DNA of 42,125 nt, taken from NCBI GenBank assembly GCA_017540175.1, contig JAFYBN010000065.1, forward strand, positions 1-42,125, in the 5' to 3' direction. The position numbers and the translations under genes were made by a program. The notes under the pieces were generated by a model that had not been told where the DNA came from, did no database searches, and was given only the letters and a program-made list of their open reading frames with translations. Of this stretch, positions 8,039 to 26,598 are shown piece by piece (the stretch's first letter is position 1; every line of letters starts with the position of its first letter). This stretch comes from Clostridia bacterium (GTDB lineage Bacteria > Bacillota > Clostridia > Oscillospirales > CAG-272).

Positions 8039-8749
8039 ATGCTTGAAGAACTGAAACAAGAGGTTTACGAGGCCTGCATGAAGATCCCCGCGTGGAATCT
8101 CGCGATCTTTACCTGGGGCAATGTCTCCGGCATCGACCGGGAAAAAGGGCTCGTCGTCATCAAGCCCTCCGGGGTGGAGTATCCCGATCTCGCGCCGGAG
8201 CTTTTCCCGGTCGTCGATCTGGAGACCGGAAAGCGCGTGGAGGGGGATCTCAATCCCTCGTCCGACACGCCGACCCATCTGGAGCTCTACCGCCGTTTCC
8301 CCGCGCTCGGCGGCGTGACCCACACCCATTCGACGTGGGCGGTGATCTACGCGCAGGCGGGCCGCGGCATCCGTCCCTACGGCACGACGCACGCGGATCA
8401 CTTCGGCGGCGAGATCCCCTGCACCCGCGCGATGACGGCGGAGGAGATCACGGGCGAATACGAGCTTGAGACGGGCAAGGTGATCTGCGAGACCTTCGAG
8501 CGGCTGGGACTGGATCCCATGCGCATCCCCGCGGCGCTCGTGCGCGCGCACGGTCCCTTCACCTGGGGAAAGAGCCCGATGGATTCGGTGGAGTGCGCGA
8601 TGACCCTCGAAGCGGTGGCGGACATGGCGTTCCACACGGAAATCCTCGCGGCGGCCCCCCGCCTGCCGGACATGGACAACACTCTGCTGCACAAGCACTT
8701 CGACCGCAAGCATGGGCCGGGGGCGTATTACGGGCAGGGGAAGAAATAA
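8039..8749 (+). CDS. araD: L-ribulose-5-phosphate 4-epimerase
   Basis: Interconverts L-ribulose 5-phosphate and D-xylulose 5-phosphate, feeding arabinose-type pentoses into the pentose phosphate pathway. The 236 residues align in numbering with the well-studied E. coli enzyme: D76 in SSDTPTH, zinc ligands H95 and H97 in THTHSTW, catalytic D120 in THAD, and H171 in HGPFTWG. All zinc-site histidines and the acid/base aspartate are present, so it should be active. The ATG follows GGAAAGGACAACCGAT. No araA or araB is in the window, so the pathway would be completed elsewhere. A perfect palindrome lies just after the stop codon. Confidence 0.93.
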   Translation: MLEELKQEVYEACMKIPAWNLAIFTWGNVSGIDREKGLVVIKPSGVEYPDLAPELFPVVDLETGKRVEGDLNPSSDTPTHLELYRRFPALGGVTHTHSTWAVIYAQAGRGIRPYGTTHADHFGGEIPCTRAMTAEEITGEYELETGKVICETFERLGLDPMRIPAALVRAHGPFTWGKSPMDSVECAMTLEAVADMAFHTEILAAAPRLPDMDNTLLHKHFDRKHGPGAYYGQGKK

Positions 8750-22271: not shown

Positions 22272-22718
22272 TCACGCCGAAAGGAAGCGGCGCAGAAAAC
22301 GCGGGAAGCGTTCGCGGGTCTTCGGCGGCATCAGAGCGGGAAGGGAAGGACGGCACACGCCGACGCGGCACCCACAGTTCTCACAGCGGCATTCCTCGTC
22401 GTGCCACGGCTCGAGCGAGCGGAGCGAGGGCGGCAGAAGAACGAGGGAGGACACGCGCTCCGGACGATCCTCTTCGAGCTCCCGCATCCGCGCGCCGCAT
22501 CTCGGGCAGCGCAGCTTTTTCGCGCGGCGGAATCTCTTCTTCTCACCCGGGAAGCGGCAGACGATCGGCTTCTTCATCGTCACGAGCTGCCATTTCGGGT
22601 CGGACGCCAGATCGAGGATCAGCCTCCAGTCCCAGACCTCGTTCAGTCCGACGACGTGCTGGTACCGCCTGCCGTCGAGCAGGACGGCTTCTTTGAAATA
22701 ATGCGTACAGTCGTTCAT
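22272..22718 (-). CDS. Hypothetical zinc-ribbon protein
   Basis: A 148-residue protein that I do not recognise as a named family. It is supported as real by GGAGGAG six bases before the ATG and by a paired-cysteine pattern. CPRCG lies near residues 70-74, and a second cluster CRCENCGC near 110-117, the usual layout of a zinc ribbon. The N-terminal half (VVGLNEVWDWRLI...WQLVTMKKP) looks like a small globular domain, and the C-terminus is very basic (RERFPRFLRRFL). It lies 207 nt after lexA on the same strand and could be co-transcribed with it. Function unknown. Confidence 0.6.
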   Translation of the reverse strand: MNDCTHYFKEAVLLDGRRYQHVVGLNEVWDWRLILDLASDPKWQLVTMKKPIVCRFPGEKKRFRRAKKLRCPRCGARMRELEEDRPERVSSLVLLPPSLRSLEPWHDEECRCENCGCRVGVCRPSLPALMPPKTRERFPRFLRRFLSA

Positions 22719-22925: not shown

Positions 22926-23537
22926 TTATTTCACACCCTTGATGATCTTCACGGCGACGCCCTGAATGCGGAAGTCCGCCATGCGCTCCCCGGGGATGAC
23001 GATGTCCTCGTACGCTTCGTTCTCAGGCTTCAGCACAATGCGGTCTTTTTCCGGGAAGAAGCGCTTGAGCGTCGTTTCGTTCCCGTCGAGCGCGACGATC
23101 ACGTCGCCCTTTTCGGCGCTCTCCTGACGGCGGATGACCACGAGATCGCCCGGCTCGATGCCGATGTTCTTCATGGAATCGCCGTCCGCCTCGAGGATGA
23201 AGAACTCACCCTCGCCGACCCACGAACGCGGCAGGCGCACCGTTTCCGTGATGTCCACGAACGGATCGTTCGGCGCGCCGCATTTGATCGTCCCGTAGCA
23301 GGGCGCGAGTACCGACTCGCCGATGGTCTTCGAGAAGGCGTTGCGCGTGCCCCGGCGCTCCCCGTATTCGATCTCCCCGTTTTCCTTCATCGCCTGCAGA
23401 TACCGCTGCACCGTGATCCGCTGGATGCCCGTGCCCGCCTCGATGTCCCTGGTCGACGGTCCGTGTCCGTTTTCCATGTAGTAGCTGTTGATGAACTCCC
23501 GGATCACGCGGAAAATCTCCTCGTTCTTGTGTCTCAT
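22926..23537 (-). CDS. lexA: LexA-type SOS repressor with Cys-Gly cleavage site
   Basis: Self-cleaving repressor of the DNA-damage response. The 203 residues comprise an N-terminal winged helix (1-65) and an S24 peptidase domain. The catalytic serine S121 lies in DGDSMKN and the lysine K158 in ETTLKR. The scissile bond should be C86-G87 in IKCGAPND; most LexA proteins have Ala-Gly, whereas UmuD uses Cys-Gly. The recognition-helix region GIQRITVQRYLQAM differs clearly from the Bacillus/E. coli style (SSSTVHGHL or SRNAAEEHL), which predicts another operator. The ATG follows GGGAGGCACGC. It is divergent from uvrA, and its promoter holds a matching palindrome. An S24-family regulator other than LexA is the alternative. 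Confidence 0.85.
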   Translation of the reverse strand: MRHKNEEIFRVIREFINSYYMENGHGPSTRDIEAGTGIQRITVQRYLQAMKENGEIEYGERRGTRNAFSKTIGESVLAPCYGTIKCGAPNDPFVDITETVRLPRSWVGEGEFFILEADGDSMKNIGIEPGDLVVIRRQESAEKGDVIVALDGNETTLKRFFPEKDRIVLKPENEAYEDIVIPGERMADFRIQGVAVKIIKGVK

Positions 23538-23575: not shown

Positions 23576-23604
23576 ATTATAACACACCAAAACGGTGCTG
23601 TCAA
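23576..23604 (-). promoter_or_regulatory. lexA promoter
   Basis: On the minus strand TTGACA (23599-23604), exactly 17 nt, and TATAAT (23576-23581), both perfect consensus. The start codon lies about 40 nt downstream. The spacer is almost completely filled by the palindrome CACCAAAACGGTG. Confidence 0.85.
23585..23597. promoter_or_regulatory. Candidate LexA operator 1 (CACCAAAACGGTG)
   Basis: A 13-bp imperfect palindrome placed between the -35 and -10 of lexA, where a bound repressor would exclude RNA polymerase. Its 11-bp core ACCAAAACGGT differs by one base from the second copy at 23625-23637. Assignment to LexA is inferred from position and autoregulation logic. Confidence 0.6.
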
Positions 23605-23624
23605 GTGCCTTTTTGAATTTTTTT

Positions 23625-23637
23625 GACCAAAATGGTC
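23625..23637. promoter_or_regulatory. Candidate LexA operator 2 (GACCAAAATGGTC)
   Basis: A palindrome with perfect 5-bp arms GACCA/TGGTC around AAA, 40 bp from operator 1 (near four helical turns). It lies about 20 nt upstream of the lexA -35 and about 28 nt upstream of the uvrA -35, so it could serve both genes. Confidence 0.55.
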
Positions 23638-23665
23638 CGGAAAGCGGAAAATTTTATAATTCCTC

Positions 23666-23694
23666 TTGACATTAAATAATCTTTCTGATATAAT
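23666..23694 (+). promoter_or_regulatory. uvrA promoter
   Basis: TTGACA (23666-23671), 17 nt, TATAAT (23689-23694), both perfect, about 70 nt before the uvrA ATG. Confidence 0.85.
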
Positions 23695-23763: not shown

Positions 23764-26598
23764 ATGCCTCAGTATATCAGCGTCCGCGGCGCGCGGATGA
23801 ACAACCTCAAAAACATCGACGTCGACATCCCCCGCGACAAGCTCGTCGTCTTCACGGGTCTCTCCGGCTCGGGCAAATCCTCCCTCGCGTTTGACACCAT
23901 CTACGCCGAGGGACACCGGCGCTTCGTCGAATCCCTGTCCTCCTACGCCCGGATGTTCATCGGACAGCTCGACAAGCCGGACGTGGACGCCATCGAGGGG
24001 CTTTCCCCCGCGATCTCCATCGACCAGAAGACCACCTCGAAAAACCCGCGCTCCACGGTCGGGACGGTGACGGAGATCTATGACTACCTCCGTCTGCTGT
24101 ACGCGCGGCTCGGCATCCCCCACTGTCCCATTTGCGGGCGCGAGATCCGCCAGACCTCCGTGGACACCATTCTCGACTCCCTCATGGAGCTGCCCGAGGG
24201 CGAGCGCTTCATGGTGCTCTCCCCGGTCGTCCGCGGCAAGAAAGGACGGCATGAAAAGGTGTTCGCCGACGCGAAGAAGAGCGGCTATGTCCGCGCGCGG
24301 GTCGACGGCATCCTCTACGATCTGAACGAGGAGATCGCCCTCGACAAAAACCTGCGGCACACCGTGGAGATCGTCATCGACCGCCTCGTCATGAAGCCCG
24401 ATCTGCGCACCCGCCTCACCGACTCGGTGGAGTGCGCCCTGAGAGAATCGGAGGGCTCCCTGCTCGTCGTCACCGTGCCGCGGGACGGCGGGACGCCGCG
24501 GGAGATGGAATTCTCGACGAACTACGCCTGCCCCGAGCACGGCGTCAGCTTCGGCGAGCTCGAGCCGCGCATGTTTTCCTTCAACAATCCCTTCGGTGCG
24601 TGCCCGACCTGCTCCGGGCTCGGCGTGCTCCGCTCCATCGATCCCGCGAAGGTCATTCCGGACGACTCGCTCAGCCTCCGGGAGGGCGCGATCAACGTCA
24701 ACGGGTTCAAAACCATGGACGAAGAAAGCTGGAACGGTCCCCTGATCGCCGCGGTGACGGAGAAATACGGCGCGAGCCTCGACATGCCCCTGCGCGATTT
24801 TCCGAAGGCTGCGCGCGACGCCCTGCTCTACGGCTGCCCCGATACCTTCACGGTCGACCGCGTCTTCGGGAACCGGGTCAATCACGTGACGACCTCCTTC
24901 GAGGGCGTGCTTAAGATCATGGAATCGAGAGCCCAGCCCGGCGCGTGGAACGCGGAATACTACGACGAATTCATGACCGAGCGCGACTGCCCCGAGTGCC
25001 GCGGCGCGAAGCTCAACCACGAGGCGCTCGCCGTCACCGTCGGAGGGCTGAATATTCACCAGTTCTGCAAAATGTCCGTGACGGATTCCCTCGCGTTCAC
25101 GAACACCCTCTCCTTCTCCGAAACCGAACGGCAGATCGCGCGGGACATCATAAAGGAGCTGCGCGCGCGGCTGGGCTTCCTCGTGTCGGTCGGACTGGAT
25201 TACCTCTCCCTCGCCCGCCGCTCCGCGACCCTGTCCGGGGGCGAGGCGCAGCGCATCCGGCTCGCGACGCAGATCGGCTCCTCGCTCGCGGGGGTGCTCT
25301 ACATCCTCGACGAGCCGTCGATCGGACTGCATCAGCGCGACAACTCGAAGCTCATCGCCACCCTCAAAAGCCTGCGCGACCTCGGCAATTCCGTCATCGT
25401 GGTGGAGCACGACGAGGAAACCATGCTCGCCTCGGACTATATCGTGGACATCGGCCCCAAAGCGGGCATCCACGGCGGCGAGGTCGTTGTCTGCGGGACC
25501 CCCGCCGAAGTCGCCGCCTGCGAGGAGTCGATCACCGGCGCCTATCTCTCTGGCAGGCGGGAGATCCCCGTTCCGAAAATCCGGCGCGCGGGGAACGGGA
25601 AGCACGTCCGCGTGATCGGCGCGCGGGAAAACAACCTCAAAAACATCGACGTGGATTTCCCGCTCGGCCGCTTCATCTGCGTGACGGGCGTGTCCGGCTC
25701 GGGCAAATCCTCCCTCGTGAACGCGATCCTCTACCGCTCCCTCGCGCATACGCTCAACCGCGCGGTCACCTTCCCGGGCGACCACGACCGGATCGAGGGC
25801 GCGGAGGCGCTCGACAAGATCATCGCCATCGACCAGTCCCCCATCGGGCGCACCCCGCGCTCCAATCCCGCGACCTACACGGGGCTGTTTACGGACATCC
25901 GCAATCTCTTCGCCTCGACGCCGGGCGCGAAAACCCGGGGCTACGCGAGCGGCCGCTTCTCGTTCAATGTGCGCGGCGGGCGGTGCGAGGCGTGCGAGGG
26001 CGACGGCGTAAAGAAGATCGAAATGCACTTCCTCCCGGACGTGTACGTCACCTGCGACGTCTGCCGCGGCAAGCGCTACAACCGCGAGACCCTCGAGGTG
26101 AAATACAAGGACAAGAGCATCGCGGACGTGCTCGAAATGACGGCGGACGAGGGCGTGGAGTTCTTCCGCGACATTCCGCGCATCGGGAACCGGCTGAAGC
26201 TGCTCTGCGACGTCGGGCTCGGGTATATCAAGATCGGGCAGTCCTCCACCACCCTCTCAGGAGGCGAGGCGCAGCGGGTGAAGCTCGCGACGGAGCTTTC
26301 GAAGCGCTCCACCGGCAAGACCCTCTACGTGCTCGACGAGCCGACCACGGGTCTGCACACCGCCGACGTCGAGATGCTCATCGCCATTCTCGATCAGCTG
26401 GTCGACGCGGGCAACACCGTCGTGGTGATCGAGCACAACCTCGACCTCATCAAATGCGCGGACCACATCATCGACCTCGGCCCCGAGGGCGGCGACGCGG
26501 GCGGCACGGTCATCGCCGAGGGCACCCCGGAGGAGGTCGCCGCCATGCCGCAGTCCTTCACCGGTCAGTATCTGCGTAAAAAACTCGGAATGGATTGA
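23764..26598 (+). CDS. uvrA: Excinuclease ABC subunit A
   Basis: Damage-recognition ATPase of nucleotide excision repair. The 944 residues hold two ABC ATPase halves: Walker A GLSGSGKS at 32-39 and GVSGSGKS at 642-649, and signature LSGGEAQR at about 490 and 831. Each signature is followed by ILDEPS or VLDEPT. The C-terminal zinc module (CEACEG... CDVC) is intact. The first zinc module reads C256-P-E-H259 ... C280-P-T-C283, so histidine stands for the usual second cysteine; zinc binding could still work. The ATG follows AAAGGAGCGCC. uvrB is not in the window. Shared control with lexA is suggested by the intergenic palindromes. Confidence 0.97.

Follow-up and report, generated by a model that had tools for sequence, protein, structure and literature searches.

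Inverted repeats at a phage-type lexA in a gut Clostridia lineage and a candidate second SOS box at recA

The window, the whole 42,125-nucleotide stretch of Clostridia DNA that was analyzed, carries a lexA-like gene, lexA2, facing away from uvrA and followed by an open frame, orfX (Table 1). Both lexA2 and uvrA have perfect sigma-70 promoters, which point apart. The lexA2 promoter, TTGACA-N17-TATAAT from 23604 to 23576 on the minus strand, matches at 12 of 12 positions. The initial annotation had described two palindromes between the genes, the first of them in the spacer of this promoter, and both descriptions are accurate: CACCAAAACGGTG and GACCAAAATGGTC are found where they had been placed, 40 bp apart. 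A third dyad, GAACCGAAAAGGAAA, is additional to that pair and starts 6 bp past the lexA2 -10. Its counterparts in an alignment of lexA2 promoters are GTACCGCAAAGGAAC in genomes G002 and G006, and GAACCATAAAGGAAC in G024 (the window genome is G000; all are members of one genus).

Table 1. Features of the lexA2-uvrA region, in window coordinates
Feature	Position	Strand	Remarks
orfX	22272..22718	-	two Cys-X2-Cys pairs in the protein; follows lexA2 at 6/7 loci of relatives
lexA2	22926..23537	-	S24-peptidase repressor, 203 aa; phage-type LexA paralogue by profile scores and tree
Dyad 3, GAACCGAAAAGGAAA	23555..23569	-	9/10 to GWWCC-N5-GGWWC; aligned with relatives' dyads
lexA2 -10, TATAAT	23576..23581	-	promoter-box match
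Dyad 1, CACCAAAACGGTG	23585..23597		fills the lexA2 -35/-10 spacer
lexA2 -35, TTGACA	23599..23604	-	promoter-box match
Dyad 2, GACCAAAATGGTC	23625..23637		upstream of both promoters; ends 28 bp before the uvrA -35
uvrA promoter, TTGACA-N17-TATAAT	23666..23694	+	12/12 match; no dyad inside
uvrA	23764..26598	+	excinuclease subunit A; adjoins lexA2 in the window genome only

The pair of palindromes exceeds chance. The exact sequence ACCAAAAYGGT has three copies in the 3.9-Mb draft genome: dyads 1 and 2, and one at position 16844 of contig C12, inside a long open frame. The chance that two of three random sites fall within 41 bp is near 6e-5, and that of two ACC-N5-GGT in 226 bp is about 1e-3. When one mismatch is allowed, the window alone has three matches against 0.66 expected, a number reached in 4 of 100 shuffles. 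The dyads are thus non-random, and their placement is that of operators. The Bacillus-type box is indeed lacking, as had been noted: a scan of the 230 bp before uvrA, enough to span the intergenic region with the lexA2 promoter, gave no GAAC-N4-GTTY at 7/8 or better. Nor do the other seven lexA2 genes have an exact GAAC-N4-GTTY in the 300 bp that precede them.

The proposal that ACCAAAAYGGT is a lineage-specific SOS motif did not survive comparison with relatives: the literal sequence is missing from the lexA2 promoters of all seven, an outcome that the initial annotation had named as refuting, and the narrow motif was rejected as an SOS box. From the aligned promoters, a better description of the putative motif is GWWCC-N5-GGWWC, with ACC-N5-GGT as its core. 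It occurs at 10/10 in seven copies in the lexA2 promoters of four of the seven relatives (two each in G002, G006 and G024, one in G011); dinucleotide shuffles of the eight lexA2 promoters together give ~0.015 full dyads. The seven copies are not independent throughout, G002, G006 and G024 being close kin whose dyads are partly common by descent. Dyads 1 and 2 of the window keep only the core, 7/10 by hand count. When spacers of 0 to 12 were compared at 9/10 or better, spacer 5 ranked highest (10 versus at most 6); at the looser 8/10, spacer 5 gave 13, fewer than spacers 11 (20), 0 (16) and 10 (15). At 9/10 or better, no dyad is found at lexA2 of G003, G012 and G019, three of the eight carriers. 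Other symmetries were seen in these promoters. GGATCC-type inverted repeats flank the lexA2 -35 in G002, G006 and G024, and a CAT...ATG symmetry is present at lexA2 of G003, G012 and G019; to judge by eye alone, recA and lexA2 of the latter three also resemble each other in a GAAT-WW-TTCG stretch.

The S24 domain of the lexA2 product scores 89 bits with PF00717 in a profile search. With TIGR00498 the protein scores 107.9 bits, below the curated equivalog cut-off of 110.95; among its orthologues, that of G006 is also below (109.4) and the other six are above (111.2-117.7). The LexA winged-helix DNA-binding domain, PF01726, gives 19.2 bits against a cut-off of 23.7, compared to 65.0 for the LexA1 of the same genome. 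Thus the DNA-binding part is unlike that of canonical LexAs, as had been suspected. An alignment with solved LexAs spans nearly the entire length of LexA2. The residues Cys86-Gly87, Ser121 and Lys158 are invariant in all eight LexA2 proteins; roles were assigned to them from this alignment and from the E. coli residues quoted in PMC3091678. The window gene is not the main lexA of its genome. A canonical LexA1 (contig C101, 203 bits with TIGR00498), with a GAACACCTGTTT box (GAAC-N4-GTTT) in its promoter, is present as well, and by profile scores and tree the window protein is a second, phage-type LexA, LexA2, rather than the housekeeping one.

In the LexA tree, 12 canonical LexAs split off with support of 100/100, and the opposite side holds LexA2, other paralogues and four LexA-like proteins from phages. 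The input held 7 of the 17 LexA1 proteins and five of seven order members, and the tool warned of long branches among the phage rows. The idea that LexA2 is a recent copy of LexA1 was dropped, as the trees give it no support. Further LexA-like paralogues, 37-43% identical to LexA2, occur in the genus on G012 contig C94, on G024 contig C73 and at two G015 loci. A tblastn search with LexA2 matched 70 phage records, and in 18 of these the coverage was 80% or more. The best matches are human-faeces contigs (MT835511, MT838014, MT835493 and MT836354; 40.6-42.1% identity over the full length), while a scan of viral contigs by peptide patterns gave no relative. By script, a dyad stands downstream of the -10 and ahead of the start in three of the four phage lexA-like genes; the fourth shows, by eye, only an imperfect one. 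One of the four genes is followed immediately by a gene that looks umuC-like by eye.

The phage dyads bear on whether LexA2 is the protein that binds. Another regulator, such as the XRE-S24 repressor encoded on contig C34 of the window genome, might occupy the dyads, with the LexA2 targets lying elsewhere. The presence of that repressor favors this idea, and so does the lack of a dyad at lexA2 in three of eight carriers with nearly the same recognition helix. It is nevertheless improbable, given that dyads stand at autoregulatory positions of lexA2 in five of eight carriers (9/10 in G000, 10/10 in the four others) and that one is found shortly before the start, beyond the -10, in three of the four related phage genes.

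LexA2 was found in eight of 25 genomes of the genus (G000, G002, G003, G006, G011, G012, G019 and G024), and no close match in 15 genomes from other families of the same order. When 84,980 species genomes were scanned by two short peptide patterns, a method limited to loci that match both, the hits apart from the window genome were the seven other carriers already listed. All seven are drafts titled Oscillospiraceae, Ruminococcus or Clostridia, and three of the titles name the ruminant stomach. In 17 of the 25 genomes LexA1 reaches 170 bits or more; G014 has 102 residues of it where a contig ends. No LexA1 was detected in the carriers G003, G011, G012 and G019, or in the non-carriers G010, G020 and G021, of which G021 gives a weak and partial match. 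Thus LexA1 and LexA2 occur together in four of the eight carriers. Absence of LexA1 in 4/8 carriers versus 3/17 non-carriers, all of them drafts, does not reach significance (Fisher 0.116). Assuming that each of the four carriers does have LexA1, incompleteness would hide it in every one with a chance of about 0.0013.

The recA promoters were surveyed at 24 loci in 24 genomes, with the recA of G011 not found and the G005 stretch only partly covered. A LexA1-type box at 7/8 or better (e.g. CGAAAATATGTTCG), usually just past the -10, is present upstream of recA in 12 of 17 non-carriers by script, in G018 by eye once the start is corrected, and in the carriers G002, G006 and G024. No such box is found at recA of the carriers G000, G003, G012 and G019 or of the non-carriers G010, G020 and G021. 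In the window genome, recA1 has instead a perfect dyad, GTACCGAAGCGGTAC, 13 bp past the -10, at the place of the LexA1 box in relatives. A LexA2-type dyad is lacking at recA of G002, G003, G006, G012 and G019, and G024 has just a weak TCC-N5-GGT upstream of the -10. In two non-carriers with no full-length LexA found, GTACC-N6-GGTAC (G021) and GTACC-N6-GGTAT (G020) lie upstream of the recA -10. The window genome also has a second recA on a likely mobile element (contig C116, 18000-34000), which also encodes a umuC-type polymerase, an SRAP peptidase and a serine recombinase with a C-terminal match to SpoVT_C, as well as an XRE-like regulator and an ImmA-like protein, both named by eye. Around this second recA/umuC/SRAP set, ACC-N5-GGT is upstream of none of six genes; TCC-N5-GGT is far upstream of two.

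With the recA1 dyad in hand, one may ask whether a regulator is needed at all. The dyads could reflect promoter or RNA symmetry, for example a 5'-leader hairpin at recA: TTGACA and TGTTATAAT create symmetry by themselves, and GTACC-GAAGC-GGTAC could pair in RNA. Dyads 1 and 2, however, lie upstream of the lexA2 transcript, and exact cores 40 bp apart exceed chance, so that we regard this explanation as very improbable indeed.

Copies of the dyad were also counted in whole genomes. Looser forms (GWACC-N5-GGWWC, ACC-N5-GGW) were in use before recA was examined, and the exact GTWCC-N5-GGWAC was fixed only afterwards. Sites of this form are rare; against a reversed-pattern control, they number 8 and 2 in the window genome, 15 and 5 in G002, 12 and 5 in G006, 3 and 3 in G011, and 9 and 6 in G024; the control is thus near the actual count in G011 and G024. 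The surroundings of all eight window-genome sites and 38 of the 39 others were inspected, a codon score under -10 being taken as non-coding. Fifteen copies are non-coding by this score: five at lexA2 promoters, one at recA1, one in the promoter of a UmuC-type polymerase of G024 (PF00817, 93 bits) and eight at places without a known SOS role. Of these eight, one precedes mraZ, one is at a blaI-like gene, one is in what looks by eye like a dnaX/SRP-RNA region, two are at places resembling promoters, and the remaining three include two that may be coding. A promoter-like stretch at position 8263 of G002 contig C73 has GTTCCTGTATGGTAC overlapping its -35/-10 spacer. Among ten other SOS-type upstream regions of the window genome, uvrB included and some inside operons, ACC-N5-GGT is present at recA1 only. 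Recurrence at repair genes, which had been set out as a check of the motif, is thus a divided result: the literal ACCAAAAYGGT is at no other repair gene, and a related dyad is at recA of the same genome and at the umuC-type gene of G024.

The neighboring uvrA had been considered a partner in the control by the dyads. It is not beside lexA2 in the loci of the seven relatives, some of which end at contig ends, and none of 19 other uvrA upstream regions has ACC-N5-GGT; hence the link of uvrA to lexA2 is probably incidental, and uvrA makes a weak LexA2 target. The 20 uvrA regions compared, the window's included, contain a single full LexA1-type box: GAACACAAGTTC in G006, 36 bp before the gene; at a further uvrA locus no start was obtained. 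A second UvrA-like protein, ~36% identical to the window UvrA over partial length, is encoded on contig C38 of the window genome (40000-45196). The other neighbor, orfX, has no Pfam family, and its NCBIfam and PHROGs matches are weak, far below cut-off. It is a candidate for an effector controlled by LexA2.

The reading that we prefer, at a probability of roughly 0.6, has LexA2 repressing its own gene and, in this lineage, recA1 by way of a new SOS-type box. From the sequence comparisons we infer that LexA2 is the binder, that it is cleaved and that it represses. A LexA2 dimer would bind GWWCC-N5-GGWWC (core ACC-N5-GGT; best copies GTWCC-N5-GGWAC) around its own promoter, at one site in the -35/-10 spacer, one at about +1 to +15 and one upstream, and so shut itself off. 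On recA1 it would act as a repressor at GTACCGAAGCGGTAC, shortly after the -10 of recA, the place of the LexA1 box in relatives. Upon DNA damage, RecA filaments would trigger self-cleavage of LexA2 at Cys86-Gly87, with Ser121 and Lys158 as the predicted catalytic residues, and the lexA2 and recA1 promoters would be freed. Several observations count against this account, among them that G003, G012 and G019 are dyad-free at lexA2 (at 9/10 or better) and at recA, though they have no detected LexA1, that most of the repair genes examined have no dyad, and that uvrA adjoins lexA2 in the window genome only.

A narrower role would suit part of the same data. LexA2 might be a local autoregulator, like the repressor of a phage or mobile element, that controls itself and perhaps orfX, the matches at recA and umuC being coincidental. 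The dyads are most repeated at lexA2 itself, orfX follows lexA2 in six of seven relatives, phage proteins are among the nearest kin of LexA2, and G002, G006 and G024 have kept LexA1 and the LexA1-type recA box. Coincidence would have to account for a perfect 15-bp dyad at recA1, which has no LexA1 box, and for another at the umuC-type promoter, where about 0.006 matches per genome are expected in 13 promoters of 230 bp. We consider the restriction of LexA2 to its own locus rather unlikely.

Repression of both lexA2 and recA1 by LexA2 would invite an evolutionary scenario, which we put forward tentatively as a possible one. In it, one clade of gut Clostridia would have acquired a LexA from a phage, and this LexA would now be displacing the older control of the SOS response by means of the new box GTWCC-N5-GGWAC, with the successive stages preserved in the genus. 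These would run from LexA1 alone, to both LexAs with recA under LexA1, to both with recA at a LexA2 box (the window genome), to loss of LexA1. In the RecA tree (seven carriers) and the UvrA tree (six carriers), G011 being in neither, the carriers group with G018, in which LexA2 was not found. The RecA tree puts G000, G003, G012 and G019 together (SH-aLRT 94). The LexA2 tree joins G000 with G002, G006 and G024 (99/96) and not with G003, G012 and G019, which counts against a simple hand-over. As the two trees disagree on G000, any order of events is provisional; as the stages apparently coexist in one genus, that order could be tested. The lineage may have been caught midway in the replacement of one SOS switch by another: intermediate stages seem to be present together, and recA seems to have moved while the old LexA remains. 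If LexA2 is truly of phage type, it would add one more SOS regulator of phage origin.

The binding site of LexA changes between phyla. A literature search that covered few subscription papers gave no GGTAC-type LexA box outside cyanobacteria and no report of LexA in this lineage. LexA2 resembles the canonical Gram-positive LexA/DinR (GAAC-N4-GTTC) in being a predicted S24 self-cleaving repressor with a putative operator in its own promoter and a predicted response to damage; it differs in a DNA-binding domain below the PF01726 cut-off and in its putative box, and the canonical type is separately present as LexA1. The gut-phage LexA-like proteins are similar to LexA2 in identity over the full length and in the dyad past the -10 (3/4), although the phage dyad sequences differ and the phage genes, unlike lexA2, are on contigs labelled phage. 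Leptospira interrogans reportedly also has two LexAs in one cell. The boxes of the two-LexA bacteria probably differ from the LexA2 dyad, and the second LexA here, unlike in P. putida, X. axonopodis and L. interrogans, is phage-type.

The two LexAs of Pseudomonas putida and of Xanthomonas axonopodis have independent binding sequences (PMC9578287), and Clostridioides difficile LexA has GAAC-N4-GTTT/C boxes at recA, lexA and uvrBA (PMC4234289). The cyanobacterial box is given as RGTACNNNDGTWCB; its GTAC-type half-site is like that of the LexA2 dyad, but the gap between GTAC and GTWC is 4 bp there and 7 here (PMC3091678). According to PMC8565304, lexA duplications accompany new motifs, and in the model given there a diverged LexA takes the regulon back once the first is lost. 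Hand-over stages in this genus would fit that model, except that the second LexA looks phage-type and not like a LexA1 copy. The same paper describes a non-canonical LexA in Bacteroidetes, a phage-like S24 repressor of SOS genes that acts via GGA-N5-TCC and CTAA-N5-TTAG. LexA2 has in common with it the phage-like S24 character and the N5-spaced dyads. The Bacteroidetes protein has a CI-like HTH and its hosts lack a canonical LexA, whereas LexA2 can be aligned to solved LexAs over nearly all its length and is accompanied by LexA1 in four of its eight carriers.
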